63,690 bases of DNA. It comes from Methylocystis sp. Lineage in GTDB: Bacteria > Pseudomonadota > Alphaproteobacteria > Rhizobiales > Beijerinckiaceae. The first letter of the stretch is position 1. Each line of letters begins with the position of its first letter. Of this stretch, positions 36,865 through 56,778 are shown one piece after another. The DNA lies in NCBI GenBank assembly GCA_022843405.1, contig JALHNQ010000016.1, positions 1-63,690 of the forward strand. The letters are read 5' to 3'. Below the pieces are notes generated by a model. That model did not search any database and had not been told where the DNA came from. It saw nothing but the letters and a program-made list of their open reading frames with translations. Position numbers and translations under genes: made by a program.

Positions 36865-38571
36865 TTAGCGATTGAAAACGGAAATCGCCAATAAGAGCGC
36901 GAGCAACAGGCAGAGCGTCTGCCAGAAAATGACGGGGTTGCGTTCATAGAGCGACTTCTTGCGCGGCGTCAGCGGCTGCGCGCGCGCCGAGCCGTTCTCG
37001 AGTTCGAAGGCGAATTCCAACACGTCGCCAAAGCGATCGCCGCGCTCGACGCCGATCGCCTTAAGGATCGCCGCGTCGAGCCAGGCGGGAAGATCGGGCC
37101 GCTTGAGCGCGAGCGGCGCGGGTTTCGTGAACCGCGGTCTGCTGAAGGGCTCGATTTCGCCGTAAGGATAGCAACGGCTGAACATGCGATAAACCGTCAC
37201 CCCGAAGGCGAATAGATCCGATGCTTCGTCGCCGGCGGCGCCGTCGAAAAGTTCCGGCGCCATATAGCTCGGCGTGCCGGGCGCATGCGCTTCCGGCAAG
37301 CACTCAAGATTGGCGGCGCGACAGACGCCGAGATCGACGAGCCGCAGCCCGCCGTCCTTCAACAGGATGACATTTTCCGGTTTGATGTCGCGATGGATGA
37401 CGCCGCAGCGATGCAAAGTTGCAATGGCGCGCGACAGGCGCGCCGCGATCGAGACGCCTTCGCCAAGATCGATTCGCGGCTCGCGACGCAGCCGCCCCTC
37501 CAGCGTCTCGCCTTCATAATAGGGCATTGCGGAATAGAGCCGGCTTTGTCGGCCCGGGAGCAGTTCGACGACTTCGCCGACGAACGGACTTCTCACCCGC
37601 GCCGCGACCCAGGCTTCGTTGACGAAGGCCATACGGTACGAAGCGTCGTCAGCGACGCGCGGATGCGGAAACTTCAGCACGACCGCCTTTCCGTTCTGCA
37701 GATCCGTCGCCCGCATCAATCGGCTGTAACGACCTTCGGAGAGAAGCGCGTCAATTCGAAAATCGTCGACCACATCTGCGATCGACGGCAGTTCGCGAAT
37801 CGGCAGGCCCGCGAAGGCCAACGACAAGGCGCGTTCGTCGGCGGGCGGCACATCGACGACATCGACGACAAGCGCCGTGACATTGTCATTGCTGCCCATC
37901 TCCAGCGCCGCCTCAACGATCCGCTCAGAGGTTTCCTGCGGCGCGCGCCGTTCGGCGAGGAGAGCGCTCAGCTTGCTGTCGGCCAATGCGCCGTGGACGC
38001 CATCCGAACACAGCAGAAATCGATCATGGAGATTAAGACTGTGCCGCCCATGATCGAACAGCAGCGAATCCTCGAAACCCACGGCGCGACGCAGCACATG
38101 CGCGAAATCGCCCTGGCCAAAGGTGTGATCCTTGGTCAATCTTTCGATTCCGTCGCCAGCTAAACGATAGATGCGCGTGTCGCCGACATGAAGGATGAAG
38201 GCGCTGCGGCGCGACAGGATCAGCGCGCTGAATGTCGTCGCCATTCCTTCCAGAGCAGGATCGACTCGCGACTGGGCCGCGATCCAGCTGTTGGCCGCTT
38301 CGAGCGAGCGGGCGGCGGCGCGCGCGACGCCCAAAGTCTCCGGCTGCGCATAATAGCCGTCGATGAACGCGCGCACTGTGGTTTCAGCGGCCGCGCGTCC
38401 GCCTTTGTGACCGCCGACGCCGTCAGCGACGGCGGCGACGACGCCTTGCAAGGCGCCGCCGCCGCTCGGACCCAAGCACAGGGCGACATAGTCCTGATTG
38501 TCGGGGCGACGGCCGGTTTGCGTCGCAAAGCCCGCTTCGACTCGTAGATCATGAACGACGCGGACCGACAC
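36865..38571 (-). CDS. Fused PP2C phosphatase / Ser-Thr kinase with C-terminal membrane anchor
   Basis: 568 residues in three parts. Residues 1-245 are a PP2C phosphatase with metal-binding RRPDNQD, AVADGVGGHKGG, ILHVGDTRIYRL, LCSDGVHGAL and GSNDNVTALVV all intact. Residues 270-530 are a protein kinase: Lys300 (VVLKF), HRDIKPEN (catalytic Asp395), Asp413 in VDLG replacing DFG, GTPSYMAPEL; the glycine loop SEGRYSRLM is degenerate. A final helix (VIFWQTLCLLLALLLAISVF) anchors it in the inner membrane, both enzymes facing the cytoplasm. Similar fusions accompany nitrate assimilation genes in pseudomonads. It is the last gene of the nas unit, 14 bases after the transporter, suggesting control of nitrate uptake by phosphorylation, which is inferred. 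Confidence 0.92.
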   Translation of the reverse strand: MSVRVVHDLRVEAGFATQTGRRPDNQDYVALCLGPSGGGALQGVVAAVADGVGGHKGGRAAAETTVRAFIDGYYAQPETLGVARAAARSLEAANSWIAAQSRVDPALEGMATTFSALILSRRSAFILHVGDTRIYRLAGDGIERLTKDHTFGQGDFAHVLRRAVGFEDSLLFDHGRHSLNLHDRFLLCSDGVHGALADSKLSALLAERRAPQETSERIVEAALEMGSNDNVTALVVDVVDVPPADERALSLAFAGLPIRELPSIADVVDDFRIDALLSEGRYSRLMRATDLQNGKAVVLKFPHPRVADDASYRMAFVNEAWVAARVRSPFVGEVVELLPGRQSRLYSAMPYYEGETLEGRLRREPRIDLGEGVSIAARLSRAIATLHRCGVIHRDIKPENVILLKDGGLRLVDLGVCRAANLECLPEAHAPGTPSYMAPELFDGAAGDEASDLFAFGVTVYRMFSRCYPYGEIEPFSRPRFTKPAPLALKRPDLPAWLDAAILKAIGVERGDRFGDVLEFAFELENGSARAQPLTPRKKSLYERNPVIFWQTLCLLLALLLAISVFNR

Positions 38572-38585
38572 GAAGGTTTCTCAGT

Positions 38586-39848
38586 TCAGATTCGCGCGCC
38601 GGAAACAGCGCCCCAGGTCGTGCGCCAGCGCGTTTTCACGAAGATCAAGCCTACGAGACCCAGCAGCGCAAGGAAACCGAAGAAGCCGAATCCAACCATG
38701 AACCCGCCGGTCATGCCCTTGGAAAGAGCGAGGGTCTTGGCGAGGAAATAGCCGCCAAATCCGCCCGCGGCGCCGACAAGCCCGGTCATCGCGCCGATCT
38801 CGCGGCGGAAGCGCTGCGGCAGCAGCTGAAACACCGCGCCATTGCCCATGCCGAGAGACAGCACGCCGATCGAGAACAGCGCCACCGCCACAAAGGCCAT
38901 CGGCGGCAGCTCCATCAAGCCCCATCCCGCGACGCCCTTCGCCGGCGCCGGTCCCGCCGGAAGAAAGGCGACGGCGAAATAGCAGGCGGACACAACGAGG
39001 AAGAGGAACGACAATGTCTTCACGCCGCCGATGCGGTCCGCGATATAGCCTCCCACCGGCCTGAACCCGGAGCCGAAAGCGACGATCAACGCAACCATAA
39101 GTCCCGCGGCGACCCCCGTCGCGTGATATTGCGTCGTGAAATAGAGCGGAAGCGCCGAGGCGAGACCGACAAAACCGCCGAAGGTGATGAAGTAGAAAAA
39201 CATGAACCAGCGGCTGTCAGAATCCGCAAGCATTTTGCCATAGCCGGAGAGATCAATCGTGGCTTTGGAGCCCGGCGCGTCCTTGGCGGCCAGCGAATAG
39301 ATCAGGAGCACGAGGACCATCAACGCCAGCAGAACGCCATAGACGGTTCGCCAGCCGAAAGCTTCGGCGATCGACGGCGCAAACAGCGTATCGAGCACGA
39401 CGCCCATATTGCCGGCGCCGGCAATGCCCATCACCAGACCCTGATATTGCGGCGGATACCAACGGCCGGCCTGCGGCAGGGCGACAGCGAAGGAGGCGCC
39501 GGCGATTCCAAGCGAAAGACCAAAAAGCGCGATCGCGATCGGACTCGTCAGTCCGAAGACGCATACGAGAGATACGGCGAACATGACGACCGCCTGTGCG
39601 AGGATGCCCGTCATCTTCGGGCCGATCGCGTCCGCCAGCAGCCCCAGCGGCACGCGGAAAAACGCCCCGCCCAGAACAGGAATGGCGACCAGCGAGATTT
39701 TTTCCTCGACCGAGATCGGCATGTCCTTGGCGATGTAAATCATCAGAGGCCCAAGCGAGACCCAGGCCATGAAGCTGATGTCAAAGTAAAGAAAGGCCGC
39801 AAGCAGCGTCGGCCAATGACCGGCCTTCTTGAAGTCCGCGAGTTTCAT
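38586..39848 (-). CDS. Nitrate/nitrite transporter, MFS NarK/NasA family
   Basis: 420 residues, 12 expected membrane segments. Imports nitrate (and possibly nitrite) for assimilation. NarK-type signatures: GGAFFRVPLGLLADAIGPK (the nitrate signature region with Arg in helix 2), GIAGAGNMGVVLDTLFAPS and the second half GFRPVGGYIADRIGG. The single 12-segment form, not the 14-segment or fused type. Lies 18 bases after the nitrate reductase stop and 14 bases before the kinase, hence in the same transcript. Confidence 0.93.
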   Translation of the reverse strand: MKLADFKKAGHWPTLLAAFLYFDISFMAWVSLGPLMIYIAKDMPISVEEKISLVAIPVLGGAFFRVPLGLLADAIGPKMTGILAQAVVMFAVSLVCVFGLTSPIAIALFGLSLGIAGASFAVALPQAGRWYPPQYQGLVMGIAGAGNMGVVLDTLFAPSIAEAFGWRTVYGVLLALMVLVLLIYSLAAKDAPGSKATIDLSGYGKMLADSDSRWFMFFYFITFGGFVGLASALPLYFTTQYHATGVAAGLMVALIVAFGSGFRPVGGYIADRIGGVKTLSFLFLVVSACYFAVAFLPAGPAPAKGVAGWGLMELPPMAFVAVALFSIGVLSLGMGNGAVFQLLPQRFRREIGAMTGLVGAAGGFGGYFLAKTLALSKGMTGGFMVGFGFFGFLALLGLVGLIFVKTRWRTTWGAVSGARI

Positions 39849-39866: not shown

Positions 39867-42611
39867 TTATGCGAGTTGCCCAGTCGTCGTCCGATTCGTC
39901 GACGATCTGGCGGCGGGAGAGACCTTGATGAGACGTTCGATTTCCGGCCGGCATGAGCCGCAGTTGGAGCCGGCGCGGATGGCCTGGCCGATGTCGGTAA
40001 CCGAGCGGCAGCCCTGGGCGATCGCCGCTTCGATTTTCTTCTGCCCGACGCTGAAACAGGAACAGACGAGCGGACCGTCATTCGCCGATGGCCGGCCCGA
40101 CCGACCGGACATCAGCGACAGCCGCTCCGAACTGTCGAGACGTTCAAGAGCGAAGAGTTCGAGCGCCAAATCCCAGGGCGGCGAAAGCGGCGCGAGACCC
40201 CAGATCAACGTCGCGCGGTCATCGACGAAAACGGCCCCAGAGAGAAGGTCCTTGGTTTCGTCGATCAACTGGATAACGTCATCGCTCGCCGCAGCGGCGC
40301 GGATAGTCTCCGCCCAATCGTCGTCTTGCAGATCGCCGGCGACGCGATAGCCAAAGCCATTGGCGACGGCGATCCGCGCCCACCACACGCCCTGGGGCAA
40401 AGCCATCGGCCTACGGGAAAGGAAGAAGCCCTGACGCGCGAAGCGCAGAGGCGTGACAATCGCCGGCGTCGCCTTTGATTCCGGCTGCCCCGAGAATGGA
40501 TCGACGAAAGGCGCAACGAGCGCGCCAATGCGCGCATGCGCGGCGGTTTCATCGGTCCAATGGATCGGCGCGAAAATATGCCCCACCGGCTGACGGTCGG
40601 TGACGACCGCACGCAGGACGCAGTCGCCATAGGGCGTGGCGACGCGGGCGAAGCCGCCGTCCTCTATGCCAAAGCGATCGGCGTCCGCCGCGCCGATCTC
40701 GACGAAGGGCTCGGCAAGATGTCGCGCAAGGCGCGGACTGACGCCTGTTCGCGTCATGGTGTGCCATTGATCGCGGATGCGGCCGGTGTTGAGCCGAAGC
40801 GGAAAGTCCTCCGTTACCTGCGTGGCCAAGCTCGGCGTCGCCGGCGCGACGAATTTCGCTCGTCCGCTTTGCGAGAAAAAGCCGCCATCGGCGAAGAGGC
40901 GCGCGCGACCTGTGCGCTCGCCTGCCTGGATCGGCCATTGCGTCGGCTCGAGCGCGTCATATTCGGCGTCGCTCAGCCGCGCGAAACCGCCAATGTTGAA
41001 CGCGCGCGCGCCGTTATTTTCGAAGACCGACAGTGCGGCGTGTTCGCGAAAGACGTCGGCGGCGGATCGGTAATCGAACCCTGCAAATCCCATCCGACGC
41101 GCGACATCGGAGAAAATCGACCAGTCGGCGCGGGTTTCGCCAGGCGCGGGCAAGAAAGCCCGCTGACGAGAAATGCGGCGTTCTGAATTCGTGACCGTGC
41201 CGCTTTTTTCGCCCCAGGCGTGCGCTGGCAGAAGCAGATGCGCGCCGCCGTTGATCGTGTCGTTCGACATAACATTGTCGGAGACGATGAAGAGTTCGAG
41301 TTTCGCCAGAGCGGCGCGCGCCGCATTGGCGTTTGGGAGAGACGCCGCCGGATTGGTTCCCACGACCCACAGCGCCTTGATGTCGCCGCGCGCAATGGCG
41401 TCGAACATCTGCACCGCTTTCAAGCCTTCGCGCTTCGACATGCGCGACGCATTCCAGAAACGTCCGACGCGGTCGATGCTTTCGGCGTCGAAACCCATAT
41501 GCGCGGCGAGACTGTTCGCGAGACCGCCGACTTCTCGCCCGCCCATCGCATTGGGTTGGCCGGTCAGCGAGAATGGCGAGGCGCCGGGCTTACCGACGCG
41601 GCCCGTCGCGAGATGGCAATTGATGATCGCGTTGACCTTGTCCGTTCCCTGCGCAGATTGATTGACGCCCTGTGAGAAGGCGGTCACCGTGCGCGGCGTC
41701 TCCGCGAACATTTCAAAGAACGACGCAATGTCGACCTCGCGCAGCCCTGTGGACCTTGCGGTCGCTTCAATCGACGGTGCGATGGTCCGCGCCGCCTTCA
41801 AGACGTCGTTCAACCCTTCGGTGTGGCGGCGAATGTAATCGTCGTCGAAGGCGGCGGTCTTTGCGAGATGGACAAGCAAGCCGCAAAACAGCGCCTGGTC
41901 CGCGCCCGGCGCGAGCTGCAAGAACAGATCCGCGCTTTCCGCGGTCACCGTACGGCGCGTGTCGATGACGACGAGCCTGGCGCCGCGCTCCTCCTTGTTG
42001 CGCATGATGCGCTGAAACAAAACCGGATGGCACCAGGCGGCGTTTGAGCCGACGAGCACGATGAGATCGGCTTCGTCCAGGTCTTCGTAGCAGCCCGGCA
42101 CCACGTCGGCGCCGAAAGCGCGCTTGTGGCCGGCGACCGTCGACGCCATGCACAGGCGCGAATTCGTGTCGACATTGGCGGAGCCGATGAAGCCTTTCAT
42201 CAGCTTGTTGGCGACATAATAGTCTTCGGTCAGCAACTGGCCCGAGAGATAGACCGCGACCGAATCGGAACCGTACTGATCAATGATGCGGCGCAGGCCG
42301 CTTGCGGCTTCGTCCAGCGCCGCATCCCAGTCCACCCGCGCCCATGCGCCGTCAGCCTGACGGCGCATCGGATAGAGAAGGCGCCCTTCGAGCCCGAGCG
42401 TTTCGTCAAGCGCCGAGCCCTTGGAGCAGAGCCGGCTGAAATTGGCCGGATGAGCGGGATCGCCGATTACGCCCTTGGCGCCGGGCGAAGCGAGGACGCC
42501 GCAACCGACGCCGCAATAGGGACAGGTCGAGCGCGTCGCCGTCGCCTGAACGGGCGAGGCGTCGGCCTGCAAATATTCGTTCGGCGCTGGCGCTTCGACT
42601 CCATCGAACAT
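39867..42611 (-). CDS. nasA: Assimilatory nitrate reductase, catalytic subunit
   Basis: 914 residues. Reduces nitrate to nitrite at a bis-MGD molybdenum centre in the cytoplasm. N-terminal [4Fe-4S] site CPYCGVGCG with Cys30, Cys33, Cys37 and Cys62 (LCSKG); molybdopterin regions YLSGQLLTEDYYVANKLMKG, GSNAAWCHPV and AFSQGVNQSAQGTDKVNAI; then a C-terminal BFD-like [2Fe-2S] domain, LVCSCFSVGQ to SNCGSCRPEIERL. The added 2Fe-2S domain is found in many NasA/NasC enzymes and receives electrons from a reductase. Start is the ATG at 42611 (MFDGVEAPAPNEY) with TTGAGG six bases upstream; a TTG at 42623 is rejected. Confidence 0.95.
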   Translation of the reverse strand: MFDGVEAPAPNEYLQADASPVQATATRSTCPYCGVGCGVLASPGAKGVIGDPAHPANFSRLCSKGSALDETLGLEGRLLYPMRRQADGAWARVDWDAALDEAASGLRRIIDQYGSDSVAVYLSGQLLTEDYYVANKLMKGFIGSANVDTNSRLCMASTVAGHKRAFGADVVPGCYEDLDEADLIVLVGSNAAWCHPVLFQRIMRNKEERGARLVVIDTRRTVTAESADLFLQLAPGADQALFCGLLVHLAKTAAFDDDYIRRHTEGLNDVLKAARTIAPSIEATARSTGLREVDIASFFEMFAETPRTVTAFSQGVNQSAQGTDKVNAIINCHLATGRVGKPGASPFSLTGQPNAMGGREVGGLANSLAAHMGFDAESIDRVGRFWNASRMSKREGLKAVQMFDAIARGDIKALWVVGTNPAASLPNANAARAALAKLELFIVSDNVMSNDTINGGAHLLLPAHAWGEKSGTVTNSERRISRQRAFLPAPGETRADWSIFSDVARRMGFAGFDYRSAADVFREHAALSVFENNGARAFNIGGFARLSDAEYDALEPTQWPIQAGERTGRARLFADGGFFSQSGRAKFVAPATPSLATQVTEDFPLRLNTGRIRDQWHTMTRTGVSPRLARHLAEPFVEIGAADADRFGIEDGGFARVATPYGDCVLRAVVTDRQPVGHIFAPIHWTDETAAHARIGALVAPFVDPFSGQPESKATPAIVTPLRFARQGFFLSRRPMALPQGVWWARIAVANGFGYRVAGDLQDDDWAETIRAAAASDDVIQLIDETKDLLSGAVFVDDRATLIWGLAPLSPPWDLALELFALERLDSSERLSLMSGRSGRPSANDGPLVCSCFSVGQKKIEAAIAQGCRSVTDIGQAIRAGSNCGSCRPEIERLIKVSPAARSSTNRTTTGQLA

Positions 42612-42619
42612 GGGGGGCC

Positions 42620-44230
42620 TCAATAGACATCCTGTTGATAGCGTCCGCTCTTTTTTTGCTGCGCAACGAAGGTGACCGCTTCATCGGCGCCGCGCGCGCC
42701 GAATTCGGCGACGACGTCGACAAGCGCGCGCTCGACATCCTTGGCCATGCGCTGCGCATCGCCGCAGACATAGAAATGCGCACCTTCGGCAAGCCATGCC
42801 CAAAGCTCGCGGCCGGCTTGGCTCATGCGGTCCTGAACATAGAATTTTTCACCGCCATCGCGCGACCAGGCGAGCGACAGGCGCGTCAACAAGCCCGTCG
42901 CCTTCATCGTTTCGAATTCTTCGGCGTAGAAGAAATCACAGGCGGAGCGTTGATGCCCAAAGAACAACCAGTTCTTGCCGCTCGCCTGCGTCGCCGCGCG
43001 CTCCTGCAGAAAGGCGCGAAACGGCGCGACGCCGGTACCGGGCCCGATCATGATGATCGGCGTCGCGGGATCGTCGGGCAGCGAGAAGCCATGGGCGGGC
43101 TGCACATAGACGGGAATTCTGTCGCCAGGCGCAATGCGCTCGGCGAGAAAGGTCGATGCGACTCCAAGACGCTTACGCTTTCCGATCACATAGCGGACGG
43201 CGTCGACGGTCAGCGACAGGCGTCCCGGCGACGCCTTTGGCGACGACGAAATGGAGTAAAGGCGCGGCTGCAGCGGCTCCAGCGCTTCAATAAAAGCCTC
43301 CGGGTGCGGGCGCGCGTTCGGAAATTTCTGCAGCACGGCGAGCACGTCGAGCGTTGCGGCGTCGCCATCAGGATCCCCGCCCTGCGCGAGCAACCGCGCC
43401 TTCTCGCGCTGCGCGCCGCCGGTAATGAAGGAGATCAGCTCGAACAGCGCATCGGGCACCGGACATAGCGATACGTCGTTCAGCAACGCATCGCGCAGCG
43501 TTTTGTTATTCACTGGCGTCACATGCGAGGCGCCGAGCATGGCGATGATCTGGTCGACGAGGCCGAGATCATTTTTTGGAAACACGCCGAAACTGTCGCC
43601 GACGGCGTAAGTCACTTCGCTGGCGCCGATGTCGAATTCAATGTGCCAGGTGTCTTTTTCCGAGCCTTCCTTGTTGAGCCGACGGCGCGACAGAAAAGTC
43701 GCGCCCGCCGGATTGTCGCGCGTCCGGCCGGGCGCCGATGCGATCGCAGTCTCTGCTGCGATGGCGGGCTCAGCCGGCGCGGCGGCCAAGGCCGGCGGGG
43801 TCTCATCCAGCTCCGCCGCCAGCGCTTTCAGCATCCGCGCCGTGTTCTTGCCGCCGGGCGCGCAAAGATTGAGGCGCGTTTCCTTCTTGGCGACGAGCAC
43901 GTCGGCGTAGGTCTCACAATTGTAGCCGCACTGGCCGCAGTCCTGCTGCGCCATCGCCGCCATCATGCGACGACGCAATGGTCGTCCTTGCGCCAGCTGC
44001 ATGCGCGCTTCGAGCGTCAGCGTCTGGTCATGCCAGGGCGCTTCGCCATCGTCGCCACCGCCAGACGCGCCGCCCAGCACCGCCGCGTTGGCCTCCGGCG
44101 ACAGCGGGGTGACGGAGCCGTCGTCAGGCGCGGCAAAGCCGGCAAAAAAGCCGCTCAGCCAGGCGCGCTGCTCAGGCGTGAAAGGCGCGCTCGGCGGAAT
44201 GAGAAAGGGCGGGGAAGACATGTGGGTCAC
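42620..44230 (-). CDS. CysJ-like Fe-S flavoprotein reductase (no flavodoxin domain)
   Basis: 536 residues, GTG start at 44230 with GGAG 8 bases upstream and a GTGA overlap with nirA. N-terminal FTPEQRAWLSGFFAGF peptide, then a [4Fe-4S] domain with Cys98, 101, 105 and 123 (DCGQCGYNCET, LNLCAPGG), then a CysJ-type FAD/NADPH reductase: FAD site RLYSISSSPK, IPVYVQPAHGFSLPDD, NADPH site IMIGPGTGVAPFRAFLQ and YVCGDAQRMAKDVERAL, ending in RYQQDVY. The FMN-binding flavodoxin domain of sulfite reductase flavoproteins is absent and the Fe-S domain takes its place. Likely delivers NADPH electrons to NirA or to the nitrate reductase; which one is not decided by sequence. Confidence 0.9.
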   Translation of the reverse strand: MTHMSSPPFLIPPSAPFTPEQRAWLSGFFAGFAAPDDGSVTPLSPEANAAVLGGASGGGDDGEAPWHDQTLTLEARMQLAQGRPLRRRMMAAMAQQDCGQCGYNCETYADVLVAKKETRLNLCAPGGKNTARMLKALAAELDETPPALAAAPAEPAIAAETAIASAPGRTRDNPAGATFLSRRRLNKEGSEKDTWHIEFDIGASEVTYAVGDSFGVFPKNDLGLVDQIIAMLGASHVTPVNNKTLRDALLNDVSLCPVPDALFELISFITGGAQREKARLLAQGGDPDGDAATLDVLAVLQKFPNARPHPEAFIEALEPLQPRLYSISSSPKASPGRLSLTVDAVRYVIGKRKRLGVASTFLAERIAPGDRIPVYVQPAHGFSLPDDPATPIIMIGPGTGVAPFRAFLQERAATQASGKNWLFFGHQRSACDFFYAEEFETMKATGLLTRLSLAWSRDGGEKFYVQDRMSQAGRELWAWLAEGAHFYVCGDAQRMAKDVERALVDVVAEFGARGADEAVTFVAQQKKSGRYQQDVY

Positions 44231-45981
44231 GCTGCGCTCTCCTCATTCACGACGCGACGCAGCGTCTCGATGTCGTGGCGCCGCGCGAAGGCGACAAAGG
44301 TTTCGTCCGCGCTCGCGCGGTTCTTTCGATAGGCGCGCAGAATTTTCGCGACCGTTTTTGGCGCGTCTTCCGCTTTCACATTCTGATGGAGTTCGGAGGC
44401 GATGCGAGCGTCTTCCGCATAACCACCGCCGACGAGAATGTGATAGCCCTCCACCGTGTCGCCCTCGTCATTGATCGGCACGCGCGCGCCGATCAGTCCG
44501 ATGTCGCCGATGTAATGCTGCGCGCAGGAATGATGGCAGCCGGTGAGATGAATGTTGATCGGCGTGTCGATCGGCGCCGCAGTCTCGCAATGCGCCGCGA
44601 TTTCTTCGGCATGGAGCTTGGTGTCGGCGGCAGCGAAGCGACAGCCAAAATTCCCCGTGCAGGCGACAAGTCCGGCGCGGATCGGCGAGGCCTTCATCGA
44701 AAGGCCTAGCGCCTCGATCGCCGCGACGGTCTCGGCGATAAGTTTGTCGGCGACGCCAGTGATCAGCACATTCTGCCAAACCGTCAGGCGCAGCCCGCCG
44801 TCGCCGAATTGGCGCGCGATCTCAGCGAGACCGCGCGCCTGCTCGGGGGTTAACCGACCGACCGGCAGAACGACGCCGATCCAATTGAAGCCTGCCTGCA
44901 TTTGTTGATGCACGCCGATATGCGCGGCGCGATCCTGGCGCGGGCGCGCCTCGATCGCCTCGGCGTCGACGCGCAGCAGCTTGCGCCCGAGCTTTTCTTC
45001 GACCGCGGCGAGGAATTTATCGAAGCCGAAGGCGTCGAGCACATATTTGAGGCGCGCCTTCGCGCGGTTGGTGCGGTCGCCATGGTCGATGAAGACCCGC
45101 AGAATCTTGTCGGCGACTTCGACCGCTTCGTCCGGCGGCACGATGACGCCCGTATCGCGGGCGAAGTCCTTGTGGCCGGTGATCCCGCCGAGCGCCAGCC
45201 GGAAGTAGACGCCCGGCGCGACCTCGCGCCCGTCGTTTACGACGACGGCCTGGAATCCGATGTCGTTGGTGTCCTCCAGCGCGCCGATCAATCCCGCGCC
45301 GTCGAAGGCGATATTGAATTTGCGCGGCAGGCCGTAGAGCGAGCGGTCGTTGAGGATGTGATGATGCATCGCCCGCGCATAGGGGCGCGTATCGATCAGT
45401 TCCTGCGGATCGACCCCGGCGGTCGGCGTCCCGGTGACATTGCGGATATTGTCGGCTCCCGACCCCTTGCTCCACAGGCCGATATCCTGAATAGCCTCGA
45501 CAATGTTGGCGGCGTTCTTCGGTTCGACCTCGCGAATCTGAATATTGGCGCGCGTCGTCACATGCAGATAGCCGCCGCCATAATTTTCAGCGAGATCGGC
45601 AAGCCCGGCGAACTGCCAGTGATTGAGCGCGCCATTGGGGATGCGCAGCCGGCACATATAGGCGTCCTGGGCCGGCGCGACATAAAAGAGGCCGTAGAAG
45701 CGCCAGCGAAAATTGTCGGCGGGGTTGGGCGGGTCGTTCGCTTTTGCTTGCGCGACGAGGCGCGACCAGGCGTCGAACGGGTGCTCCTCGCGCTTCCATT
45801 TTTCCTGATCGGTGAGCTTGCCGCCGGCGGCCGTGACGCGGTCCTGCGCTGAAAAATGCGCGGCGTCGGGTCCCATCGGCTGCGCTTGCGCGGGCGGCGC
45901 CTTTTGTCCGCCGCGGGCCGAGAAGCCGGCGGCAAATCCTTCGAGATAGCGCTTTTGGTCGAGCGTGAAATCGACGGACAT
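44227..45981 (-). CDS. nirA: Assimilatory nitrite reductase, sirohaem type (NirA family)
   Basis: 584 residues. Six-electron reduction of nitrite to ammonium using sirohaem and a [4Fe-4S] cluster. Two ferredoxin-like/sirohaem halves: FRWRFYGLFYVAP and RANIQIREVEP, and the cluster ligands CTGNFGCRF with TGCHHSCAQHYIGDIGL (four Cys). NADPH-dependent sulfite reductase haemoproteins share the fold, but the nas context and its neighbours fix nitrite as substrate. The N-terminus FTLDQKRYLEGFAAGF repeats a peptide of the CysJ-like partner encoded next. Starts 1 base after the FAD reductase stop. Sulfite use cannot be fully excluded. Confidence 0.92.
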   Translation of the reverse strand: MSVDFTLDQKRYLEGFAAGFSARGGQKAPPAQAQPMGPDAAHFSAQDRVTAAGGKLTDQEKWKREEHPFDAWSRLVAQAKANDPPNPADNFRWRFYGLFYVAPAQDAYMCRLRIPNGALNHWQFAGLADLAENYGGGYLHVTTRANIQIREVEPKNAANIVEAIQDIGLWSKGSGADNIRNVTGTPTAGVDPQELIDTRPYARAMHHHILNDRSLYGLPRKFNIAFDGAGLIGALEDTNDIGFQAVVVNDGREVAPGVYFRLALGGITGHKDFARDTGVIVPPDEAVEVADKILRVFIDHGDRTNRAKARLKYVLDAFGFDKFLAAVEEKLGRKLLRVDAEAIEARPRQDRAAHIGVHQQMQAGFNWIGVVLPVGRLTPEQARGLAEIARQFGDGGLRLTVWQNVLITGVADKLIAETVAAIEALGLSMKASPIRAGLVACTGNFGCRFAAADTKLHAEEIAAHCETAAPIDTPINIHLTGCHHSCAQHYIGDIGLIGARVPINDEGDTVEGYHILVGGGYAEDARIASELHQNVKAEDAPKTVAKILRAYRKNRASADETFVAFARRHDIETLRRVVNEESAA

Positions 45982-45982
45982 T

Positions 45983-47215
45983 TCAGGCGGCCTTCTGAAC
46001 GGGCGCGCCGAACATCAATTCGTCGCGCATCGACGAAATATCCGCGCCGGAACGGATGAGATCGAGAAAATCGGCCGCGCCGTTCGTATCTCCGACCAGG
46101 ATCGCGCCGACGAGCCTGTCGCCGCGCATGACAAGCTTGCGATAAATTCCCATGCGCGGGTCCTGGCAGACGATGCGGCGCGAATCGTCATCGCCGAGAT
46201 AGTCGCCGGCCGAGAAAACGCGCACGCCGGACACTTTGAGGTTGGTGGAGACGACACTGCCGCCATAGGACGCGTTCTGTCCCGCAAGCCGCATGGCGAG
46301 AACCCGCCCCTGCTCATAGGCAGGCTCGACGAGGCCATAACAGACTCCGCGATGTTCGGCGCATTCGCCAATGGCGAAAACGCCGGCTTCGCTGGTCTCG
46401 AGACCATCGTCAACGATCGCGCCGCGTCCGACGTCAAGACCCGCCTGTCGCGCGAGGTCGGCGTTGGGCCGAATGCCGACGGCGAAAATCACGACGTCGG
46501 CTGGAATCGTTCGACCGTCGGCGAACTCTACGCCTTCGACGCGGCCAGCGCCGTTGATGCGCGCCGTATTGGCGTTGAGCAGCACGCGCACGCCTTTTTC
46601 TTCAACGAGGCGGCGCAGGATGTCGGCGGCCGCTGCGTCGAGCTGGCGCTCCATCAGCCGATCCATGACATGGGCGAGCGTTACGTCGACGCCGCGCCGC
46701 GCCAGCCCATAGGCCGCCTCGAGTCCAAGAAGACCGCCGCCGATGACGACCGCACGGGCGCCTTTGCCTTCGAGCCGGGAAAGCGCTTCGACATCCTGCA
46801 CGTCGCGAAAGGTATGAACGCCGGGCAGATCGGCGCCTTCGATCGGCAGCCTTACCGCATGCGAACCCGTCGCAAGCACGACTTTCGAATAATCGACGCT
46901 CGCTCCATTATCGAGAACGACGCGCCGGGCGGCGGCGTCTATCTCAACGGCCTTGCAGCCGCTGAGCGCGGAAACGCCCGGGGCGCGCCACCAATGCCGC
47001 GGTTTGAGTTCGATATCGTCGACCGACAAATCTCCGGCGAGCACCGAGGACAGCAGCACGCGATTATAGGCAAGTTGCGGCTCTTCCCCGACTACCAGAA
47101 TGTCGTAGGCGTTCGGCGCGCGGCTTGTCAGCTCCTCGACGAAACGCGTCGCGGCCATGCCGGCGCCGACGACGACGAGCTTTTCGCGACTGTTAGAAAC
47201 TTGCAAACCTGTCAT
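45983..47215 (-). CDS. NirB-like FAD-dependent pyridine-nucleotide reductase
   Basis: 410 residues. The first structural gene behind the leader RNA. Two Rossmann motifs: KLVVVGAGMAATRFVEEL (FAD) and RAVVIGGGLLGLEAAYGLAR (NAD(P)H), with AVGIRPNADLARQAGLD and the acidic FAIGECAEHRG typical of NirB N-terminal halves and rubredoxin reductases. It lacks the [2Fe-2S] and sirohaem domains of a full NirB (about 850 residues), so it is a free-standing reductase that may drive NasA or NirA. A role in reducing the nitrate reductase 2Fe-2S domain is inferred. Confidence 0.9.
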   Translation of the reverse strand: MTGLQVSNSREKLVVVGAGMAATRFVEELTSRAPNAYDILVVGEEPQLAYNRVLLSSVLAGDLSVDDIELKPRHWWRAPGVSALSGCKAVEIDAAARRVVLDNGASVDYSKVVLATGSHAVRLPIEGADLPGVHTFRDVQDVEALSRLEGKGARAVVIGGGLLGLEAAYGLARRGVDVTLAHVMDRLMERQLDAAAADILRRLVEEKGVRVLLNANTARINGAGRVEGVEFADGRTIPADVVIFAVGIRPNADLARQAGLDVGRGAIVDDGLETSEAGVFAIGECAEHRGVCYGLVEPAYEQGRVLAMRLAGQNASYGGSVVSTNLKVSGVRVFSAGDYLGDDDSRRIVCQDPRMGIYRKLVMRGDRLVGAILVGDTNGAADFLDLIRSGADISSMRDELMFGAPVQKAA

Positions 47216-47293
47216 GCGTCGACTCTGCTGAACGGCCGAACGGTCCGGTCACAGGTCGCTTCGCCTAGTCTGCGAGAAACGGGCAAGACGACC

Positions 47294-47323
47294 GAAGCGC
47301 GTCGCAAATTGCGAAATCGCTTC
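47294..47323 (-). terminator. Terminator-like hairpin of the nas leader
   Basis: On the minus strand GAAGCG (47323-47318) pairs with CGCTTC (47299-47294) and the interior TCGCA pairs with TGCGA across ATT. It follows the second hexaloop hairpin and precedes the FAD reductase gene by about 80 bases. No long U-run follows, so termination efficiency is uncertain; the position is the one expected for the NasT-controlled terminator. Confidence 0.55.
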
Positions 47324-47330
47324 TGTGACG

Positions 47331-47378
47331 GAGCCCAGCCTTGGGCTCGTTCCGGCGGACCGGCGGTCGTCGTTGACC
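47331..47378 (-). promoter_or_regulatory. NasT/ANTAR-target leader RNA, two hexaloop hairpins
   Basis: On the minus-strand transcript the first hairpin is GGTC-AACGAC-GACC (47378-47365) and the second is GAGCCC-AAGGCT-GGGCTC (47348-47331). Both have six-base loops with A at loop position 1 and G at position 4, the conserved feature recognised by ANTAR-domain antiterminators. They lie between nasS and the first structural gene, upstream of a terminator-like hairpin. Expected action: with nitrate or nitrite, NasS releases NasT, which binds the paired hexaloops and prevents termination. Confidence 0.88.
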
Positions 47379-47486
47379 AACTGGGTAAGTGCACGATTCG
47401 GGCCAGACGCGCCCAATCGGGTCTCTTGTTGAAAATGCAGGCGTTCAGCGGTCTTCGAGGGCAGCGGGCGGCGCTGTTCGGCGCCA

Positions 47487-47524
47487 AATGCTTAGGCGCG
47501 AGGCGCCTAACGCATGGCGCTTTT
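47487..47524 (-). terminator. Hairpin just after nasS
   Basis: On the minus strand TTAGGCGC and GCGCCTAA pair perfectly across CTC (around 47492-47510), and outer arms CGCCA/TGGCG and TGC/GCA extend the stem. No T-run follows. It may end or stabilise the nasTS part of the transcript. Read-through into the hexaloop leader is still needed unless a separate promoter lies between. Confidence 0.45.
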
Positions 47525-47541
47525 GAACAGGGGTTCGGCGC

Positions 47542-48690
47542 TCACAAACGCTGTCCGATTGCGAAGCCAGCGAGATATTCCCCGTAGCTCCCGCTGTCGA
47601 AAGACGGTCCGGCGAAGGCGGCAATCTCGCGCTGATTATGCGCGCCGCCGACGGCGGCGTCGAACAGATCCGGGCGCAGGACGCCCTTCGCCTTGTCGGC
47701 CATGGCCGGAGAATAGCGCGTCTGCCGCCAGCGGAGCATTTGCGCGTAAATCCATTCGGCCTGGCGCGGATCGGGCCGCATCGCGCCTGCTTCGCCAATG
47801 ATGAGATAGTCGTTTCTCTCGCGCGTCTCTTGACCATTGACGCGCAAACGGCCGGTCAGCACGCGCCGGATGATCTCAGCGTCGACGCCGACATATTCCG
47901 GGCCCGAGAGAATTCGCGAGACCTCCTCCAGGTTTTGCGGCTCATCGACATAGGCGGCGCCTTTGTAGACGGCGCGGATCAGCGCGGCGACGAGATCGGG
48001 GTCGTCGTCGGCGACGCTCTCGCGCAGCGCGAGAACCTTCTCGGGCGCGCGCTTAAAAATCTCGCAGCCGAAATGCAGAATGACGCCGACGCCCGCGTCG
48101 ACCGCGACCGAACTCCATGGCGCGCCGACGCAAAATCCGTCGAGCTGGCCGCGCGCGAGATTTTCCACCATGTAGGGCGGCGGCAGAGCGATTAAGCGCA
48201 GGTCATCGTCAGGATCGACGCCGCCTTCCGCCATCCAGTAACGCAGCTGATAATTATGCATCGAAAACGGGAAGGTCATGCCAAACGTCAGGGGCTCTCG
48301 ACGCTCGACCTGGCGGCGGGCGACGACTTTCGCCAGCGCGCGCGCGCTTTGCGCCGGCTCTCCAACCTCGCCAACCGCAGTCAGTTCCGCATAAAGCGCG
48401 GTGGACACGGCAATCGCATTGCCGTTCATCGCGAGATTGATCGGCGCCGCGAGCGGGACGCGCACATGGCCCAGTCCGAGCGTGGAGGCGACCGCCATCG
48501 GCGCCAGAAGATGCGCCGCATCGAAGCGGCCGATGGCGAGCTTGTCTCTGATATTCGCCCAGGACACTTCGCGGATCAGTTCGACATCGAGTCCTTGCGC
48601 CGCGGCGAAGCCCTTATGCGTCGCAATGAACAGCGCCGCCGCGTCGACAAGCGGAATGAAGCCAATTTTCACCTGCGCTTCGCCGGTCAT
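47542..48690 (-). CDS. nasS: Nitrate sensor NasS (NrtA/CmpA-like, cytoplasmic)
   Basis: 382 residues. Resembles periplasmic nitrate-binding proteins (KIGFIPLVDAAALFIATHKG, QGLDVELIREVSWANIRDKL, AAHLLAPMAVASTLGLG) but has no signal peptide, the mark of cytoplasmic NasS. Without nitrate/nitrite it holds NasT inactive; ligand binding frees NasT. ATGA overlap with nasT (4 bases) indicates stoichiometric production. The leader with two hexaloops follows directly downstream. Confidence 0.93.
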   Translation of the reverse strand: MTGEAQVKIGFIPLVDAAALFIATHKGFAAAQGLDVELIREVSWANIRDKLAIGRFDAAHLLAPMAVASTLGLGHVRVPLAAPINLAMNGNAIAVSTALYAELTAVGEVGEPAQSARALAKVVARRQVERREPLTFGMTFPFSMHNYQLRYWMAEGGVDPDDDLRLIALPPPYMVENLARGQLDGFCVGAPWSSVAVDAGVGVILHFGCEIFKRAPEKVLALRESVADDDPDLVAALIRAVYKGAAYVDEPQNLEEVSRILSGPEYVGVDAEIIRRVLTGRLRVNGQETRERNDYLIIGEAGAMRPDPRQAEWIYAQMLRWRQTRYSPAMADKAKGVLRPDLFDAAVGGAHNQREIAAFAGPSFDSGSYGEYLAGFAIGQRL

Positions 48691-49259
48691 TTGAACATCT
48701 CCGCCGCAGTGATGACCGAGCGCGCGATTTCAATGATCTTCTTGTTTTCGCGCATCGCCGCGCCGCGCATCAGCTTATAGGCCTCTTCTTCGGAGAGACT
48801 CTTCGCCTTCATCAATATGCCTTTGGCGCGTTCGATTGTCTTGCGTTCAGCAAGGTCGGATTTGGCGCGCTCAAGATCGTCCCGAAGCTTGGAGAAGGCC
48901 TCGAAACGGGAGATGCACAGATCGAGGATCGACTTGATGCGCTCCTTTTTCAGTCCGTCGACGATATAGGCTGAGACGCCGGCGTCGACCGAGGCTTGAA
49001 TAGAGGCCGTATCGCTTTGGTCGACAAACATCGCGATCGGCCGGCGCACGGCGCGGCTGACCTGAAACATCTGCTCGAGCGTGTCGCGCGAGGGATTTTC
49101 AAGATCGATCAGGATGACGTCTGGGTCGATGGCGTAGATCTGCTTCAGCAGATTATGCATTTCGTCGATACGCTCGACCTGCGTGAAGCCGGCGTCACGC
49201 AATCCTTCCTGCAGGATCAACGATCGAATGGGACTTTCGTCGACGATGACGATTTTCAA
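48687..49259 (-). CDS. nasT: Antiterminator NasT (receiver-like + ANTAR RNA-binding domain)
   Basis: 190 residues. N-terminal pseudo-receiver (KIVIVDESPIRSLILQ, Asp52 in ILIDLENPSRD) and C-terminal ANTAR domain (ERKTIERAKGILMKAKSLSE to MRENKKIIEIARSV) that binds paired hexaloop RNA hairpins. The linker is a coiled coil (DDLERAKSDLAERKT). First gene of the nas cluster; no histidine kinase is needed in this system. Target hairpins are found at 47331-47378 in the same transcript. Confidence 0.94.
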   Translation of the reverse strand: MKIVIVDESPIRSLILQEGLRDAGFTQVERIDEMHNLLKQIYAIDPDVILIDLENPSRDTLEQMFQVSRAVRRPIAMFVDQSDTASIQASVDAGVSAYIVDGLKKERIKSILDLCISRFEAFSKLRDDLERAKSDLAERKTIERAKGILMKAKSLSEEEAYKLMRGAAMRENKKIIEIARSVITAAEMFK

Positions 49260-49357: not shown

Positions 49358-50581
49358 TTATATCTTGAACCGCAGCGACATGCCCGCCTGCCAGTTTTTC
49401 ATGATCTGGGGACCGTTGAGGTTCTGATAGACAGGCAGACCCGCCTCGATCGCGAGCAGCGTGTTTTCATATCCGACAAATTTGCCGCTGATCGTCGCGC
49501 CGCCGAAGAGCTCGACCCGCTGGCCGCCGTAAAACGCCGGATTTGCCGGCACGGCCGGGCCGCGGATTTCCGGATCGAAGCCGCGTATCTGGCCCTGCGT
49601 CGAAGCGCTCGCGCGAAAGGTGGTCGTCAGTCCCGCCGTCCAGGTGTAGCCGAGCCAGCCGTTGAATTCATGCAGGTCGCCCCAGCGGTAGCCTCCCGAA
49701 GGAGTCGGGCCGAGGGGGAAGCGCAGGCGGTATTCCAGCAGATAGTCCCAGGAATAGTCCAGCGTATTTGGGGCCAGCGGAAAGCGCCCACGGTAGCCGA
49801 GGCCCCAGGACCACGGCCCCAGATAGCCCGCATAGATGACGCCGGGGAGGAAATCGAACGTGCCCGTGCCCGGCTGCATGCCATAGAATCCGCGTACATT
49901 GCGGCGGGTCCCGTCGGGCAGGAGAAAGTCGCTGAACGTCGCCGTGTAGCTGCCGGCGGGGAAGGAGAAGCCAAGAGAGAGCTGGATGCGGTGGACATCG
50001 TCCTGGTAGAGCCGATAGACGCTCGACAAAGTGACGTCGGCAAGGCTCGTCGTGCCCGGCAAACTCCTGCCCAGCGGCATAATGCCGGACGCGCCCCTGA
50101 AAGTTAGGGCGTTGAGATTTTTCTCGACCATGCCGGCCGTGAGAATCACTGAGAGATCTTTCGTGACGCCGTAATTCAGGCCGACAATTTGCGTCGCAAC
50201 CGCGATATTTTGCGGGATGATGCGCACCGTCTGCCGGGGATTGAGAAAGAACGGCACTGTCGTGACGATATATTCGTTCGAGACCGTGCGCGTTCCCATC
50301 TTGATGCCCGACAGATTGGCGAAGACCGGCGTAATGGAGAGAACGAGTTTGCCGGCGGCCGGCATGTCGGCGCCGAATATGCCCATGGGCGCGGGCGGCG
50401 GAGGCGGCGGCGGCGCGGGTTGCGCTGTCGCGGGCTGAGTTTTTATCGAAGGCGCTTCCGCAGCCGCGGGCTTGCGGGGCGCCGCATTCGCGTCGGCCAC
50501 GACAATCGCCGTCGCCATAGCCATCGCCAGCGCGCCTTGCGACCGTCGAACCATCGATCGATGCGATTGTGCCTTCTTCAT
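49358..50581 (-). CDS. Outer-membrane beta-barrel protein, phenol MetA-degradation-like
   Basis: About 407 residues. Signal peptide (to ADANA), then a Pro-rich spacer with a run of seven Pro, then a barrel of alternating aromatic strands: LVLSITPVFANLSG, IQLSLGFSFPAGSYTATF, FLPGVIYAGYLGPWSWGLGY, WDYLLEYRLRFPLGP and the terminal WQAGMSLRFKI (aromatic-Ile C-terminus suited to BAM insertion). This pattern matches the Pfam phenol MetA-degradation (transporter) superfamily, whose members are usually of unknown substrate. Start at 50581 (MKKAQS) with GAGG 7 bases upstream is preferred to 50593. Not part of the nas unit by function. Confidence 0.7.
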   Translation of the reverse strand: MKKAQSHRSMVRRSQGALAMAMATAIVVADANAAPRKPAAAEAPSIKTQPATAQPAPPPPPPPAPMGIFGADMPAAGKLVLSITPVFANLSGIKMGTRTVSNEYIVTTVPFFLNPRQTVRIIPQNIAVATQIVGLNYGVTKDLSVILTAGMVEKNLNALTFRGASGIMPLGRSLPGTTSLADVTLSSVYRLYQDDVHRIQLSLGFSFPAGSYTATFSDFLLPDGTRRNVRGFYGMQPGTGTFDFLPGVIYAGYLGPWSWGLGYRGRFPLAPNTLDYSWDYLLEYRLRFPLGPTPSGGYRWGDLHEFNGWLGYTWTAGLTTTFRASASTQGQIRGFDPEIRGPAVPANPAFYGGQRVELFGGATISGKFVGYENTLLAIEAGLPVYQNLNGPQIMKNWQAGMSLRFKI

Positions 50582-50617
50582 CGCGAACCTCATCTGCGAC
50601 TCGTCCGAGCGCGCCAG

Positions 50618-54540: not shown

Positions 54541-56778
54541 GTGAGCGCGACTGAACCCGCCGTCACGCCGGAGCTGGCCGCCGCCCACGGCCTCAAGCCT
54601 GATGAATATGAGCGCCTGCTGAAACTCATCGGCCGCCGCCCGAGCTTCACTGAGCTCGGCATTTTCTCGGCCATGTGGAACGAGCACTGCTCCTACAAAT
54701 CGTCGCGCATCCATTTGCGCAAGCTGCCGACCAAGGCGCCATGGGTGATTCGCGGTCCGGGCGAGAACGCCGGCGTGATCGACATTGGCGACGGCGACGC
54801 CTGCGTCTTTAAGATGGAGAGCCACAACCACCCGTCCTTCATTGAACCCTATCAGGGCGCGGCGACGGGGGTTGGCGGCATCCTGCGCGACGTGTTCACA
54901 ATGGGCGCGCGGCCGATCGCCTGCCTGAACCTTTTGAGATTTGGCCGTCCGGCGCATCCCAGAACGCGCCGGCTCGTCGCCGGAGTCGTCGCCGGCGTCG
55001 GCGGCTATGGCAATAGTTTCGGCGTGCCGACGGTCGGCGGTTCGACCGAGTTCGACCCCTCCTATGACGGCAACATCCTCGTCAACGCCATGGCGGTCGG
55101 TCTGGCGCGCGCCGATTCGATCTTCTACTCGGCCGCCGCCGGGGTCGGCAATCCGATTGTTTATCTCGGCTCGAAGACCGGGCGCGACGGCATTCACGGC
55201 GCCACCATGGCGTCGGCGTCCTTCGAGGAGGACGCCGAGGAAAAACGTCCAACCGTGCAGGTCGGCGATCCTTTCTCGGAAAAGCTGCTGCTCGAGGCCT
55301 GTCTGGAGCTGATGGCGTCGGGCGCGGTCATCGCCATCCAGGACATGGGCGCCGCCGGCCTTACCTCCTCGGCGGTGGAGATGGGCGCCAAAGGCAATCT
55401 CGGCATCGAACTCGACCTCGACGCCGTGCCCTGCCGCGAAGCGGGGATGACCGCCTATGAAATGATGCTCTCCGAAAGCCAGGAGCGCATGCTCATGGTT
55501 CTAAAGCCCGAACTTGAAGCGCAGGCCGAGGCGATTTTTAAGAAATGGGGGCTCGATTTCGCGATTATCGGCAAGACCACCGACACGCTGCGCTTCGTGG
55601 TCAAGCACAAGGGCGAGGTGAAGGCCGACCTGCCGATCAAGCAATTGGGCGACGAAGCGCCGATCTATGACCGGCCGTGGACGCCCACGCCCAAACCGCC
55701 CGCGATCGATCCGGAGTCGATCAAAGCGCCGCTGTCCGATCGCGAGGCGCTGCTCAGACTCCTCGCGACGCCAAATCTCTGTTCCAAGCGCTGGGTCTGG
55801 GAGCAATACGACCACCTCATTCTCGGCAACAGCGTGCGCCCGCCGGACGGCGACGCCGCAGTGGTCAGGGTCAAGGAGGGACCGAAAGGACTGGCGCTGA
55901 CGACCGACGTGACCGCGCGCTATTGCGCCGCTGACCCTTATGAAGGCGGCAAGCAAGCGGTCGCCGAGGCCTGGCGCAACATCACCGTGCGCGGCGCGAC
56001 GCCGCTGGCGCTCACCGACAATCTCAATTTCGGCAATCCCGAAAGGCCAGAATATATGGGCCAGTTCGTCGGCTGCCTGCAGGGGATTGGCGAAGCGGCG
56101 CAGGCCCTCGATTTTCCGATCGTCTCCGGCAATGTCTCGCTCTACAACGAGACCCAGGGCGCCGGCATTCTGCCGACCCCGGCGATCGGCGGCGTCGGGA
56201 TCATCGCCGACGTCGCCAAGGCGGCGCAGACCGGCTTCGCGCGCGAGGGTGACGCGATTCTGCTGATCGGCGAAACCTCGGGCTGGCTCGGCCAGTCGGC
56301 CTATGCGCATGATCTTTGCGGACGCGCTGACGGCGCGCCGCCGCCGGTCGATCTCGCCGCCGAACGCAGGAACGGCGACTTCATTCGCCAACTCATTCTT
56401 ACCGGTCTGGCCAGCGCGGCGCATGATCTCTCGGACGGCGGCCTCGCCGTCGCGCTCGCCGAAATGGCGCTCGCCAGCGGAAGGGGAGCCGAAATCACGG
56501 ACCTCCCCGAATGCCCGCGCCACGCAGCGCTATTCGGCGAAGATCAGGCTCGGTACCTGATCACGACGAATGATCCGTCGCCGGTCATCGCTTTGGCCAT
56601 GGAAGCGCGCGCGCCCATTCGGGTTCTCGGGCGCGTGTGCGGCGACGCCTTGATCCTTCCCGGGGAAACGCCGATATTGCTGACTGAACTGCAAGAGGCG
56701 CACGAAACCCCGCTGCCGGCCTTCATGGCCGGCGACGACAATGCGCTTACGGCCGCTTTCTCAACACAGGCGACATAA
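54541..56778 (+). CDS. purL: Phosphoribosylformylglycinamidine synthase subunit II
   Basis: 745 residues, GTG start with GAGG close upstream. ATP-dependent conversion of FGAR and ammonia to FGAM in purine synthesis; works with PurS and PurQ (not here). Motifs: [87 protein letters not shown] and [18 protein letters not shown]. Length is normal for the small PurL type. bolA follows 1 base after its stop. Confidence 0.97.

Follow-up and report, generated by a model that had tools for sequence, protein, structure and literature searches.

In the nitrate operon of Klebsiella oxytoca, the ANTAR protein NasR, which itself senses nitrate, acts on the nasF leader, where two hairpins with A at position 1 and G at position 4 of their six-base loops (A1/G4) occur together with an intrinsic terminator; NasR selects a C:G closing pair in these hairpins (PMC7496416). 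A dual hexaloop target is also found in the eut system of Enterococcus faecalis, in which it is bound by dimeric EutV and has a linker of 5-12 nt between its two hairpins (P1 and P2), the second of which overlaps the terminator (PMC3369931, PMC8934654). A linker of 14 nt is already harmful in the eut system, linker length is treated as variable in the published ANTAR-target search model, and overlap of P2 with a terminator, seen in about 30% of the published hits, is not a defining feature (PMC3369931). In Paracoccus denitrificans, nasT and nasS are cotranscribed and lie upstream of nasABGHC, a separate transcription unit with a hairpin leader before its structural genes; according to the accessible text of the respective papers, NasT shifts the leader RNA, and hairpin HI was suggested to bind NasT and hairpin HII to mediate attenuation (PMC5424462, PMC3795266).

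Here we analyze a leader of this kind in a window (the whole stretch of DNA analyzed, 63,690 nt) from Methylocystis sp., in which the minus strand encodes, in this order, nasT, nasS, a 326-nt gap that accommodates the leader, and five structural genes. The nasT gene (48687..49259) codes for a 190-aa protein with a response-regulator receiver domain (PF00072) and an ANTAR RNA-binding domain (PF03861, 1.6e-18), which is the sole ANTAR match found in this genome. It overlaps by 4 nt the adjacent nasS gene (47542..48690), which adjoins the leader and encodes an NMT1_2-type nitrate sensor (PF13379, 4.8e-74, together with the adjacency to nasT) that, from knowledge of the family, we take to be NasS. 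The structural genes encode a 410-aa NirB N-terminal-like FAD/NAD oxidoreductase (45983..47215; TIGR02374, below the cut-off), a NirA family nitrite reductase (44227..45981; NF007126, above the cut-off), a CysJ-like flavoprotein reductase (42620..44230; NF004859, above the cut-off), an assimilatory nitrate reductase-like (NasC-like) molybdoprotein with a BFD [2Fe-2S] domain (39867..42623; the top NCBIfam matches, Fdh-alpha and NasC, are both below the cut-off) and a NarK-type MFS nitrate/nitrite transporter (38586..39848; TIGR00886, below the cut-off). The position of nasT-nasS upstream of a hairpin leader and structural genes is the same as in P. denitrificans, whereas the structural genes themselves differ. 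Two further genes flank the locus: a PP2C phosphatase-Ser/Thr kinase fusion is encoded directly 3' of the NarK gene on the same strand (36865-38571), and a 411-aa ORF upstream of nasT (49358-50593) matches none of the Pfam or NCBIfam families at E 0.001.

The minus-strand transcript of the leader contains, exactly as the first-pass annotation had claimed, two hairpins with perfect stems of 4 and 6 bp, namely P1 (47378-47365, GGTC-AACGAC-GACC, with a possible fifth U-G pair) and P2 (47348-47331, GAGCCC-AAGGCT-GGGCTC), the loops of which read AACGAC and AAGGCT. Both hairpins thus display the features of ANTAR targets, that is, at least 3 bp, a six-base loop with A1/G4 and a C:G closing pair, which they share with the nasF leader. 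The two stems are separated by 16 nt, 12 of which can form a linker hairpin of their own, CCGG-UCCG-CCGG (47352..47363, minus strand). Among the 34 leaders that we compared (L156, L019, a near-copy of L018, and L151 were excluded from these counts), the linker measures 16 nt in 24 and ranges from 13 to 19 nt, in contrast to the shorter linker of the eut leaders, which speaks against a strict reading of the motif. When a dual motif was defined as two A1/G4 hexaloops on stems of at least 4 bp, G-U pairs included, with a linker of at most 20 nt, dinucleotide shuffling of the 326-nt leader produced one in 6 of 2000 sequences, and in 1 of 2000 when the stems had to be Watson-Crick paired and no shorter than 4 and 6 bp. 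Across both strands of the whole window, seven loose dual motifs were detected, including P1/P2, which alone attains the stronger form. A scan of the window with Rfam models returned a tRNA elsewhere and no over-threshold match in the leader; three weak matches at 46900-47900 (sX12, aceE-II and AS-pc02) were far below their cut-offs and were discarded. We consider it highly likely that the element is an ANTAR-target leader, and its predicted binding partner is very probably the adjacent NasT; no second ANTAR protein was detected in this genome.

The hairpin arrangement is conserved well beyond this genome. At the closest nasS loci, all from the same genus, P1, linker and P2 hairpin were present in 17 of 17 cases. 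A strict DNA pattern applied to 119 genomes of the family matched only the window, and covariance models were used instead. Of 397 genomes of the family, 29 were matched by a model of the P1-linker-P2 block (R1) with E values of at most 1.6e-5; 24 of these matches fall at nasS loci that were already known or at Methylosinus-type nasS loci, and each of the remaining five (L153, L154, L155, L157 and L158) is followed by a gene for a pyridine-nucleotide oxidoreductase. A second model (R2), rebuilt from 23 matches, was run on genomes of the order and the class. At E 1e-4 it matched 11 of 397 genomes of the order, which are the window, G012, six genomes of a second family (f28) and three matches judged false, and in 385 genomes of the class it recovered the window and two matches judged false by eye. 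In all six f28 genomes the element lies upstream of an NMT1_2 (NrtA-like) gene, and a repeated search of these genomes and 95 relatives produced the same six matches only. The Methylocystis genome itself contains one strong site for the model, the runner-up having an E value of 0.01. A weak minus-strand R1 match at 55000-55049 (18.8 bits) probably occurs by chance. Model matches at L159, L166-L168, L174 and L175 were judged false by eye, with no nitrate-type gene behind them, and a doubled element in L004/L041 (L041:3814-3981, 100-nt spacing across an N) was set aside as a likely assembly artefact. A second copy of the element in genome G029, in front of a NirB-like ORF (L156:1725-1770), has P1 and P2 without the linker hairpin.

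Covariation was assessed on alignment A5, made with a stricter cut-off after alignment A4, which included weak matches, had been dropped; L156, L019 and L151 were excluded from it as well. In A5 (21 distinct sequences), 8 of the 14 base pairs show changes on both sides, compared to a mean of 2.7 in shuffled alignments, none of 500 of which reached 8; these pairs belong to P1 (1 of 4), the linker hairpin (3 of 4) and P2 (4 of 6). Pairing is possible in 98.3% of the cells, against 18-56% after the partners are slid by 1-3 columns, although A5 was fitted to the covariance model and is therefore biased toward pairing. In the MAFFT alignment A2 (14 sequences), both-sided changes are confined to three pairs of P2, with none in P1 or the linker. 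The first-pass annotation had named a loss of the loop bases in relatives, together with that of the stems, as counterevidence. In all 34 leaders, the P1 loop follows AA(C/A)G(A/G)C, so that A1 and G4 are invariant, and the C:G closing pair of both hairpins is equally universal (34/34). The P2 loop counts against the annotation, as it starts with A in 30 of the 34 leaders and with G in the other four (GAAGTA twice, GACGAT twice), in a survey that admitted as P2 only loops with G4 and a purine at position 1; G4 is also present in all 23 rows of A5.

A distal segment of the leader, GGUCGUC (47287..47293, minus strand), is complementary to loop positions 4-6 and the 3' arm of P1 (GACGACC, 47371-47365); we denote this alternative pairing helix d. 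The segment is found in exactly this form in 27 of 34 leaders from two families, 70-83 nt before the ATG, and in L158, in which P1 is divergent, a matching complement lies closer to the start codon (p 0.12). Duplex, fold-energy and accessibility computations covered 22 of the 34 leaders. When either P1 and P2 or helix d was forced, the two folds came out nearly equal in energy in 17 of the 22 leaders (gap of at most 4.1 kcal/mol), the remaining five showing gaps of 6-13 kcal/mol in both directions. The duplex between P1 and the downstream region was better than in shuffled sequences (p <=0.05) in only 10 of the 22 leaders, and L154, L157, L162, L164 and L165 gave no support in this comparison; a permutation test across 14 lineages yielded p 0.22 for helix d, but both sides of the helix hardly vary and the test has no power. 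The linker has a distal complement too: its segment CGGUCCG (47362-47356) can pair with CGGACCG (47241..47247, minus strand), 25 nt before the ATG, to form what we denote helix h. Pairing within a lineage exceeds permuted pairing across 14 lineages (p 0.0002, relatedness being uncontrolled), although L163, L164 and L049 pair no better with their own partner than with those of other lineages and L020 barely does. Both the linker hairpin and helix h are compatible with P1 and P2, and either of them could accompany NasT. Downstream of P2, alignment A6 (18 distinct rows) delineates a downstream domain (47248..47329, minus strand) with an outer stem (47329-47323/47254-47248) and inner stems (47322-47319/47298-47295 and 47293-47282/47265-47254). 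In A6, both-sided changes affect one pair in helix h, one in the short inner stem and one in the outer stem, where they come from a single sequence (L016); no such change was seen in the GGUCGUCUUGCC stem or in helix d.

The mechanism that we moderately favor places NasT at P1 and P2, on top of a control of initiation by sigma54. The leader of the assimilatory nitrate operon would be transcribed from its own sigma54 promoter (probably driven by NtrC), with its 5' end at P1. Nitrate or nitrite would release NasT from NasS, and a NasT dimer would grip P1 and P2, so that P1 could not pair, through its loop and 3' arm, with the distal GGUCGUC and the approximately 115 nt from P2 to the start codon would stay in the permissive fold, that of the P1 type. 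When NasT is absent, competition from the P1:GGUCGUC helix would make the region refold, and expression would fall. We infer that the output route differs from a classical U-tract terminator and might consist of Rho-dependent or weak termination or of poorer initiation of translation; the direction of the switch is likewise a prediction.

Among the alternatives, direct antitermination by NasT of the canonical kind was the reading of the first-pass annotation, and part of it is retained: an ANTAR target with conserved loops and covarying stems lies just 3' of nasT-nasS in a genome in which a single ANTAR protein was found. The ordinary terminator that this reading needs is not supported. Under such a scheme, the P2 3' arm plus GUCACAG would pair with CUGUGAC-CGGACC into a long stem, and this stem, or else an inner one, would act as a U-tract-free intrinsic terminator that NasT blocks at P2, in line with the terminators of the NasR and EutV systems (PMC3369931, PMC7496416) and with the Methylosinus leader L049, in which the P2 3' arm continues into a long stem (A6, by eye). 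Against this, there is no TTTT between P2 and the ATG in the window, nor in 31 of the 34 leaders altogether (the exceptions being L009, L164 and L165), the long stem contains two mismatches in the window (by eye), and the best conserved competitor, GGUCGUC, can pair with P1 rather than P2. The annotation had rightly seen no clear U-run, but its term "terminator-like" for the hairpin after P2 appears generous, even though conserved helices do follow P2. In favor of the scheme, the design expected for canonical antitermination exists in the same genus: six leaders located before NMT1_2 (NrtA-like) genes (L024, L026-L030) share with the studied leader a sigma54-type box and two hexaloop hairpins (A1 of the P1 loop is present in 4 of 6 and replaced by G in L024 and L030, by eye), but in these P2, GCAGC-A..G..-GCTG, overlaps an intrinsic terminator with U6-U8 in 6 of 6 cases, as in the published ANTAR design. 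Judged by its sequence, the nas leader departs from the canonical P2/terminator arrangement: a U-run is not a common feature, a third hairpin occupies the linker, and it is P1 that has the distal competitor. We regard a terminator blocked at P2 as unlikely here.

Equally improbable in our estimate, as compared with the P1-based switch, is purely translational control, in which the leader fold sets the access of ribosomes and NasT does not affect elongation. ANTAR control of translation has been reported in actinobacteria (PMC8164766), and in our data the 3' end of the top linker partner is 23-28 nt away from the ATG in 14 of 16 same-family representatives (15 nt in L021, 35 nt in L157). Against such control, this distance is 26-33 nt in the second family, and the computed changes in start-site access between the P1+P2 fold and the d fold are small (higher in the P1+P2 fold in 15, equal in 2 and lower in 5 of 22 leaders). 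An in-frame upstream start considered for L020 and L021 was dropped since L022 breaks the frame. Another set, of 69 loci mostly from Bradyrhizobium (L050, L052-L119), speaks for translational control. In 28 of the 69, a hairpin CAGC-A..G..-GCTG located 3' of nasS, in the position of P2, has in its loop and 3' arm 8-9 nt of complementarity to a segment that contains GGAGC immediately 5' of an ATG (30 of 69 if the ATG context is not required); 16 of the 69 lack such a hairpin and 9 lack a complement. This complementarity suggests that the Bradyrhizobium-type ANTAR hairpin may compete for the ribosome-binding site.

The start of the message bears on a further proposal of the first-pass annotation, that nasTS and the element are made as one transcript; transcription would then run from upstream of nasT through nasTS into the element, with NasT controlling read-through on its own mRNA. 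The overlap of nasT and nasS and the common direction of the operon are compatible with read-through from nasS into the leader. However, the leader has a sigma54-type -24/-12 box of its own, TGGCCCGAATCGTGCA (47390..47405, minus strand), which follows the GG-N10-GC pattern and resembles the consensus TGGCAC-N5-7-TTGCT (PMC12316311). All 34 leaders, six of them located before NrtA-like genes, carry TGGC at 26-28 nt upstream of P1, and GG-N10-GC is present in 31 of them, the exceptions (L160, L164 and L165) ending in TTGTA; rpoN and ntrC are both present in this genome. Because the box is conserved at such a rigid spacing, the message probably begins at P1, at a start predicted from the -12 element to lie at 47379..47380 (minus strand), directly 5' of P1, and need not contain nasTS. 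A strong GGCGCC-rich dyad immediately 3' of nasS (47481..47510, minus strand; TTAGGCGC-CTC-GCGCCTAA followed by GCGCC-N9-GGCGC), about 75 nt upstream of the promoter and almost invariant in 16 aligned close leaders, may be an NtrC/enhancer site, may mark where the nasTS transcript ends, or may combine the two roles. Together with the separate nasTS and nasABGHC units of P. denitrificans (PMC5424462), the box and the dyad argue against a single transcript, which we consider quite doubtful. That the hairpins are unconnected with NasT, arising by chance or as part of a DNA-binding site, is very improbable given the covariation, the fixed loop bases and the nitrate-type genes behind the strong matches, even though GC-rich DNA abounds in hairpins, as the loose dual motifs of the window illustrate, and R1 at a loose E of 0.1 matches 223 of the 397 family genomes, mostly as noise.

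The P1-based switch tentatively raises the possibility, for which our confidence is limited, of a distinct class of ANTAR leaders in two alphaproteobacterial families, with a P1-linker hairpin-P2 block at the 5' end, P1 rather than P2 as the switch arm with the distal GGUCGUC as its alternative partner, and a bistable RNA that NasT would tip without an intrinsic terminator. Such leaders would differ from those of E. faecalis eut by the 16-nt linker with an inner hairpin and the distal competitor on P1, from the K. oxytoca nasF leader by the intrinsic terminator visible there and not here, and from the P. denitrificans leader by the linker hairpin, the sigma54 box at fixed spacing and the P1:GGUCGUC alternative, which we did not see described in the accessible text of the Paracoccus papers. 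In a literature search of mostly open-access papers (among them also PMC6759348 and PMC3794950), we found neither a NasT leader of Methylocystis nor a hairpin inside an ANTAR linker. The present leader, with its covariation-backed structure, competing fold and U-tract counterpart in the same genus, makes the output step of NasT control over nitrate genes with GC-rich, U-tract-free leaders directly testable, which is of relevance to the use of nitrate by Methylocystis methanotrophs.
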